This document shows, one piece after another, positions 35,214 to 58,201 of a DNA stretch of 64,000 nucleotides. The stretch is from NCBI GenBank assembly GCA_938036875.1, contig CALHVX010000073.1, positions 1 to 64,000 of the forward strand, given 5' to 3'. Source of the stretch: an uncultured Pseudomonadales bacterium (GTDB lineage Bacteria; Pseudomonadota; Gammaproteobacteria; Pseudomonadales; Azotimanducaceae). The translations under genes were made by a program, and so were the position numbers. Every line of letters begins with the position of its first letter. Within the stretch, counting starts at the first letter, position 1. Below the pieces are notes generated by a model. The model was not told where the DNA came from. It saw only the letters and a list, made by a program, of their open reading frames with translations, and did no database searches.

Positions 35214-35762
35214 CTAGTACTTGTTTCCCGGATCCGACACATGCTCCAACATGCCATCCGGCACATCCGGAAATTGGGTCTCAAATAACTCACCGGTCAC
35301 CGGCGGGTCGATATCGAACACATTGTTAAACTTATGCACAGAATCCCAAATGCCAACCGCAATGGTGAGTTCAACCACCTGATCTTCGCTGAAGTGCTCC
35401 TTTAGCCGCGCCATAAAGGCATCGTCAATGCCGTGGGCGTGGTTGCTCACAAAATCTTCCGTTAGATCTAGAGCCACTTTCAAGCGCTCATCTAAATCGG
35501 AGTTGCGATGATCCAGCATCTGCACAACCATCTCTTCGGTCATACCATTCTGCCGCGCCGCGGCAGATCGAGCAGGTATTCAGTAACGGCAACCATTTAG
35601 GTTCGCGGACTTCAAACGCACCAAGTCTTTCAGCAACGGGTCGAGCTTGCTGTGGGACCACAACACCCCGTACCGAAACATAAAGCCCTTAAACAAATCT
35701 GGACAATGGGAATAGACACCGCCAAACCCTTCCAACCCACCTACCTCTTCAACTCTTGCCAT
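35214..35762 (-). CDS. AhpD-like / carboxymuconolactone decarboxylase-family protein, probable selenoprotein (CxxU)
   Basis: A 182-residue AhpD-like protein if the TGA at 35580-35582 is read as selenocysteine (Sec61). Before it: Tyr-Gly-Val-Leu-Trp-Ser (31-36), Leu-Lys-Asp-Leu-Val-Arg-Leu (44-50) and Asn-Leu-Asn-Gly-Cys58-Arg-Tyr. After it, in the same frame: Pro-Ala-Arg-Ser-Ala-Ala-Ala-Arg, then Leu-Thr-Glu-Asp and Val-Val-Glu-Leu-Thr-Ile-Ala-Val-Gly. Family relatives have a Cys at Sec61, forming the CxxC redox pair. The ribosome-binding site GAGGG precedes the ATG at 35760-35762. A SECIS-like hairpin follows the TGA. It lies 50 bp past the flavin monooxygenase gene. The alternative is a recent nonsense mutation splitting the gene. 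Confidence 0.7.
35542..35579 (-). promoter_or_regulatory. SECIS-like hairpin downstream of the in-frame TGA
   Basis: Directly after the TGA, on the coding strand, ATACC (first five bases) pairs with GGTAT at the far end. An upper stem CTGCCGC/GCGGCAG (7 bp, extendable by one U-A pair) closes a GGC loop. The loop starts 21 bases after the TGA, its first two bases are G, and the upper stem is GC-rich. These fit the bacterial SECIS rules: UGA-to-loop distance of about 16-37 nt and G in the first two loop positions. Confidence 0.6.
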
Positions 35763-35812
35763 AATTTATCCCTCTACAATGCTTCTATCTTTTAGTAACA
35801 AATTAAACTGGG

Positions 35813-45868: not shown

Positions 45869-45949
45869 GACCTACCTAGACCAAGAAGACTGTTACGAAG
45901 GTACCACCGATCCCCTTGTTTTGCCGCCACGACTTGCCTAAACTCAAAG

Positions 45950-46086
45950 CTCATCGAGACCGGTGGAGGGATAGGCCCTTCGAAGCCGGAGCAACCATCA
46001 GCGCTAGGCCCAACAACCTAACGCTGAACGGTGCTAATTCCTACAAAGTGCATCCGCGACATAAAGGACAACGCTTTGACAGATGA
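45950..46086 (+). promoter_or_regulatory. SAM-I (S-box) riboswitch upstream of metB
   Basis: The conserved core is clear: GGTGGAGGGAT then GGCCC, GAAGCC, GCAACC, and later GGTGCTAATTCC. The helices can be drawn as P1 CTCATC (45950-45955) with GATGA near 46082, P4 CAAAGTG with CGCTTTG, and the kink-turn GGAGGGA in P2. It lies 117 bp before metB, the methionine-pathway gene it should control by SAM. An 8-bp stretch at 46132-46139 (CTCGATGA) is the exact complement of 45951-45958 and could compete with P1. No poly-T terminator is obvious, so translational control is a possibility. Confidence 0.85.
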
Positions 46087-46203
46087 TCAAGAGACACTGC
46101 CCTATTGGTGACGTGAGCTTGATTCAAAACCCTCGATGATTTCTTAACTCGGCATAGCCACATGCATGTGCATTTGAGCTTTTGCCTCTAACAGAGAAAT
46201 CAG

Positions 46204-57838: not shown

Positions 57839-57984
57839 GAATCTCCCCTTGGTTATCTCTCAATCCCCGAGTATAACCCCATCTTCTCAAGTACGCCGTT
57901 TGCTAAGCATCTCAGCCCCAAACCTCTCTCAGGCTGCACTTTAGGCAGATGACGCGCTATACTCCGCTCCCGGCGCAATCTGCG

Positions 57985-58150
57985 TCGAACGCTCTAAGTG
58001 CTCGGGAAATCGGTGTAAATCCGATACTGTCCTCGCAACGGTAAATGAGTGTTTGCCATCACTAGCCACTGTGGCCACCAGAACCTAAGGGTTCTTAGTC
58101 CACGGGAAGGCGATTGCAAACCAGCCCTCATGAGTCCGGAGACCGGCTTA
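57985..58150 (+). promoter_or_regulatory. Cobalamin riboswitch upstream of btuB
   Basis: The conserved core is present: GGGAAAT then CGGTGTAAATCCGA, ACTGTCCTCGCAACGGTAA, and a B12-box-like AGTCCGGAGACCGGC (58133-58147). It ends about 55 bp before the btuB start. Repression by adenosylcobalamin is the expected behaviour. Boundaries are approximate. Confidence 0.9.
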
Positions 58151-58201
58151 GTGCGAACTTTCACGCCGTTCGAGGATCAACGGTTAGCCCGAGAACTCAA
58201 C

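Follow-up and report, generated by a model that had tools for sequence, protein, structure and literature searches.

A probable selenocysteine codon in an AhpD-like gene of an uncultured Pseudomonadales bacterium

The locus considered here raises a simple question: is an in-frame TGA the scar of a nonsense mutation, the boundary between two genes, or a codon that is translated? It lies on the minus strand of the window, by which we mean the whole stretch of 64,000 nucleotides that was analysed, and it is the single in-frame TGA (35580-35582, codon 61) of a frame that opens with an ATG at 35762 and closes with a TAG at 35214-35216. The original prediction, made from the letters of the window, was that of a real selenoprotein and not of a nonsense mutation. 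The presence of the selenocysteine (Sec) machinery, the conservation of the TGA, purifying selection and a covarying hairpin all support it, and we consider it very probable, on comparative sequence evidence, that the gene encodes a CMD/AhpD-like selenoprotein in which UGA 61 specifies Sec.

A single frame through the TGA

Translated through the TGA, both halves of the frame (35214..35762, minus) read as one AhpD/CMD family protein of 182 amino acids: the frame, the position of the TGA, the stop and the length are all as first described. A Shine-Dalgarno-like AGAGGG, read directly from the sequence, stands 7 nucleotides before the ATG (35770..35775, minus). The CMD domain (PF02627) spans residues 27-102, on both sides of the TGA, with a Pfam E-value of 1.4e-11 and 44.6 bits against a gathering cut-off of 23. 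The AhpD core domain model TIGR00778 is a narrower match, with 28.1 bits against a curated cut-off of 27.8, and an orthologue of the gene, L098, falls slightly under this cut-off with 26.5 bits. In the read-through protein the TGA (minus strand) would supply the selenocysteine of the motif C58-R-Y-U61, whose first residue, Cys58 (codon at 35589..35591, minus), is invariant in 30 aligned CMD proteins.

Homologues were sought in 84,980 species by means of two peptide patterns; both derive from the part of the protein before the TGA, so that they cannot distinguish Sec from Cys at codon 61. The scan yields 19 loci, with identities of 68-85%, among them those of Candidatus Litorirhabdus singularis IMCC14734 (orthologue L098) and of uncultured Halieaceae; it is from such relatives that the window is placed, by inference, in the Halieaceae. 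The 18 loci that cover codon 61, from 8 Halieaceae-like genera, have the same layout, and every one of them has TGA there; no Cys codon is found at this position among these 18 members of the close subfamily. Of 207 genomes of the window's own family, 20 carry the gene; they belong to 8 genera, and every full-length copy has one TGA, while three partial matches in two genomes leave codon 61 uncovered; the two sets overlap largely, both being drawn from the same species.

The TGA has been retained among the 18 homologues at dS above 1. For the downstream half, dN ranges from 0.09 to 0.27 with dS above 1.5 or saturated, so that dN/dS, where computable, is about 0.05-0.11: this half is under purifying selection, and is not decaying. 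The residues UIPARS around the motif and the C-terminal PGNKY are invariant. The combination that had been named as the sign of a pseudogene, a stop in close relatives followed by decay of what lies beyond it, is thus not what the relatives display.

A SECIS-like hairpin after the TGA

The TGA is followed by a SECIS-like hairpin (35549..35567, minus), which occupies nucleotides +13 to +31 past the codon. Its 8-bp stem is formed by UCUGCCGC and GCGGCAGA, and its GGC loop (35557-35559) begins at nucleotide +21. Its first loop bases are G and lie within the distance of about 16-37 nucleotides downstream that is expected of a SECIS element, and its stem covaries; the hairpin has the features of such an element.

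Folding of the region gives a minimum free energy of -16.7 kcal/mol and a z-score of -1.9, with 8 of 200 shuffled sequences folding equally well; on its own, this z-score is modest. If a comparable hairpin is defined by a stem of at least 7 bp, a loop starting with GG at +16 to +37, and an energy of -13 kcal/mol or lower, only 3 of the 2086 TGA trinucleotides counted over the two strands of the window are followed by one, and codon 61 is among those 3.

The comparison of relatives adds covariation. Across 16 distinct sequences, 99.2% of the cells of the inner stem are paired, and three of its eight pairs have changed on both sides (G-C to U-A, U-A to C-G, C-G to A-U), while the GGC loop is invariant across the distinct relatives aligned. 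Versions of the structure slid along the alignment give no comparable pattern of pairing and covariation, and RNAalifold independently recovers the same inner stem. Constraint is also visible at synonymous sites: codons +4 to +13 reach a synonymous identity of 0.84, the gene as a whole 0.47, and this segment ranks first of the 174 ten-codon windows of the gene.

The folding check proposed with the original prediction thus finds the hairpin, covarying and synonymously constrained, and the predicted stem, which has 8 bp, and GGC loop at +21 are conserved. The outer 5-bp helix that was predicted to flank them (35542..35579, minus) fares differently: it forms in the window's own minimum free energy structure, but it is specific to the window, with 78.8% of cells paired and its central pair broken in 14 of the 16 distinct relatives, and therefore lies outside the conserved SECIS.

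Elsewhere in the window, a SAM riboswitch (45948-46089, +) and a cobalamin riboswitch (57979-58165, +) are found well over the Rfam gathering score.

Machinery, paralogues and the competing readings

The search for selA, selB, selC and selD that the original prediction called for finds all four in the same genome, within 6 kb on another contig, C15. The genes selA (536 bits), selB (382 bits) and tRNA-Sec(UCA) (70 bits) are consecutive, ARAGORN also naming the tRNA as tRNA-SeC(tca), and selD lies 1.3 kb beyond this row on the opposite strand. Within the family, selA is present in all 20 genomes that carry the gene, and tRNA-Sec in 12 of these 20 at E <= 1e-9. The apparent lack of tRNA-Sec in the genus g22 is at least partly due to this cut-off, since two of its four genomes have a divergent tRNA-Sec of 49.8 bits; in the fragmented genome G017, which has a TGA-bearing gene, tRNA-Sec was not detected. 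Over 58 genomes, a count that includes two TGA-bearing matches (G024 and G005) not read residue by residue, the presence of tRNA-Sec is associated with TGA-bearing CMD genes (Fisher p 0.005). Within the family there is no such association (p 0.63), since the machinery is present in almost every member, and we do not rely on the Fisher result.

Two side observations concern these genes. The divergent tRNA-Sec copies of g22 (L156:1491-1579, minus, and L157:1469-1557, plus) have relatives that score about 70 bits, and one of the two is called tRNA-Lys(ctt) by ARAGORN, though the covariance model fits tRNA-Sec. The selD gene sits inside an ORF of 724 amino acids (L054:9787-11961, minus) whose N-terminal half resembles, by eye, a pyridine-nucleotide disulphide oxidoreductase; the ORF would be of the Ndh-SelD fusion type of PMC2398784.

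Cys occupies the column of position 61 in other CMD subfamilies of the same bacterial family, with the motifs TDCGFC, NQCRSC and NWCSFC, which supports the reading of the TGA as Sec; still other subfamilies have a TGA in this column (NDCFTU, TDCGYU and NGCVFU). On a CMD tree of 33 sequences, some of whose long branches are uncertain, the Sec/Cys label changes at least three times. The exchange of U and C that the original prediction proposed to look for is thus seen against paralogues of about 30% identity, and only there, because the close subfamily yielded no Cys form. The gene with the motif NDCFTU lies in the window's own genome and is a further CMD selenoprotein candidate (L057:6122-6649; G000:C57:12136-12537, minus). 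It has a hairpin with an 8-bp stem and a GGC at +21, whose letters differ from those of the window hairpin; the same geometry on a different sequence is independent support for this geometry being the SECIS of these genes. As for the NGCVFU protein (L075:1470-2030, in G011), it scores 243 bits against NF053654, whose cut-off is 310, and is a likely relative with Sec that would fall below the NCBI cut-off.

How do other readings of the TGA stand against these observations? That it is a nonsense mutation in a decaying pseudogene has in its favour the interruption of the frame, and nothing else; a TGA common to 18 homologues in 8 genera, a downstream half under selection and without further stop, and a hairpin kept at synonymous sites make this reading close to inconceivable, and we reject it on the conserved TGA and hairpin. 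A pair of genes, namely a short upstream peptide and a downstream ORF of 109 amino acids from the ATG at 35543, would account for the ORF, which does exist. Its start, Met74, is the sole candidate restart, and is replaced by Leu in three relatives (L098, L099 and L100); moreover the ORF would contain only part of the CMD domain, without the CxxC/U site. We hence reject this division as well, and give it almost no credence. It is also very unlikely that the UGA is read through as Trp, Cys or Arg. Sequence cannot by itself distinguish read-through products, but the Sec machinery is complete, the SECIS-type hairpin is at the right distance and position 61 is the column of a redox Cys. A general reassignment of UGA is rejected, since TGA acts as an ordinary stop in the window, where it terminates 15 of the 53 long ORFs.

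From the codon to a function

Under the selenoprotein reading, and as far as its anatomy, its conservation and the machinery allow us to reconstruct the steps, SelB carrying Sec-tRNA(UCA) would be recruited via the hairpin starting 13 nucleotides past codon 61, with its GGC loop at 21 nucleotides, and would decode the UGA as selenocysteine. Sec61 would stand where the CxxC of AhpD has its second Cys (Cys133 in the M. tuberculosis protein). By analogy with the family, a selenenylsulfide between Cys58 and Sec61 would then form during the reduction of a hydroperoxide or during electron transfer to a peroxiredoxin partner.

The fold agrees with this assignment. The nearest sequence matches in the PDB are the AhpD-like proteins PA0269 and Atu0492, and a predicted model, of medium quality (mean pLDDT 70) and used for fold assignment only, matches P. 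aeruginosa AhpD (7xw1) with a TMt of 0.88. PA0269/AhpD (2ijc, 2o4d, 7xw1; PMC3141380), the best fold match, has its CxxC at the same place and a Tyr two residues past the first Cys. The proton relay is another matter. In M. tuberculosis AhpD it consists of Glu118, Cys130, His132, Cys133 and His137, and PA0269 has Glu, Cys, Tyr, Cys and His at these positions (PMC3141380). The window protein, with the correspondence to M. tuberculosis AhpD assigned by spacing, has Asp46, Cys58, Tyr60, the putative Sec61 and Arg65, invariant in 19 sequences. Compared with PA0269, it thus has Sec where the second Cys stands, and Asp46 and Arg65 in place of Glu36 and His55, and the AhpD relay set is not matched. 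With an invariant Arg65 in place of the distal His, peroxidase activity is not guaranteed.

In our analysis the most likely physiological role is that of a thiol/selenol-dependent peroxidase, or of its adaptor; the peroxidase step, taken alone, we hold to be somewhat favoured. A selenoprotein with another reaction, for instance a thiol/selenol-dependent reductive dehalogenation resembling that by Bmp8, or redox chemistry during the catabolism of aromatics or lipids, would depart from this account only in its last, conjectural step. Such a reaction is unlikely, but it deserves consideration: Bmp8 (6ohi/6ohj), a debrominase of the CMD family, is among the fold matches, Arg65 stands where AhpD has its relay His (PMC3141380), several loci adjoin Rieske dioxygenases or short-chain or acyl-CoA dehydrogenases, and the window gene adjoins a FAD-binding protein. 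Against it, Bmp8 matches less well than the AhpD-like proteins, and the neighbours change from genus to genus: in 20 loci no neighbour gene is conserved between genera, so that genomic context designates no particular substrate. One may go further and conjecture an obligately Sec-bearing Halieaceae CMD subfamily, without a Cys form, whose relay Glu and His have been recast as Asp and Arg for a reaction outside the classical peroxides, such as reductive dehalogenation or aromatic or lipid breakdown; we regard this as rather improbable.

Selenoproteins of this general kind have precedents, and the marine-metagenome precedent invoked in the original prediction is indeed in the literature. A CMD domain-containing selenoprotein was described in 2005 in the Sargasso Sea set, with PF02627, a CXXU motif and 4 sequences (PMC1088965), and it resembles the present one in Pfam family, motif, bacterial SECIS and marine origin. 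The GOS survey lists the CxxU selenoproteins AhpD-like 1 (299 sequences) and AhpD-like 2 (70 sequences) (PMC2398784), in which the AhpD active site likewise reads CxxU, with Sec standing in for the second Cys, and which have Cys homologues; the latter are many in the GOS table, whereas none was found inside the window subfamily. A 2026 review (PMC13188914) lists both kinds, the Sargasso Sea protein under the name CMD-like CxxU. Among curated models, the top NCBIfam match is NF053654 (E 7.7e-16), a YciW-related family named for proteins with Sec or Cys; the window protein scores 58.4 bits against its equivalog cut-off of 310, and is hence a non-member. The peroxidase-related enzyme model TIGR01926 gives 29.1 bits against 81.8. 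As no curated NCBIfam (seleno)protein model is passed, what we have is, judged by sequence and with the Sargasso and GOS sets compared by description only, a new, unmodelled NGC(R/L)YU subfamily of the known CxxU kind.

A standard gene caller is expected to shorten the gene to the ORF of 109 amino acids. Since the subfamily has no NCBIfam model either, the gene has probably been missed in Halieaceae genomes. With no Cys form in the 84,980 species scanned with the two peptide patterns, the subfamily offers a clean case in which to ask what is gained by Sec over Cys.
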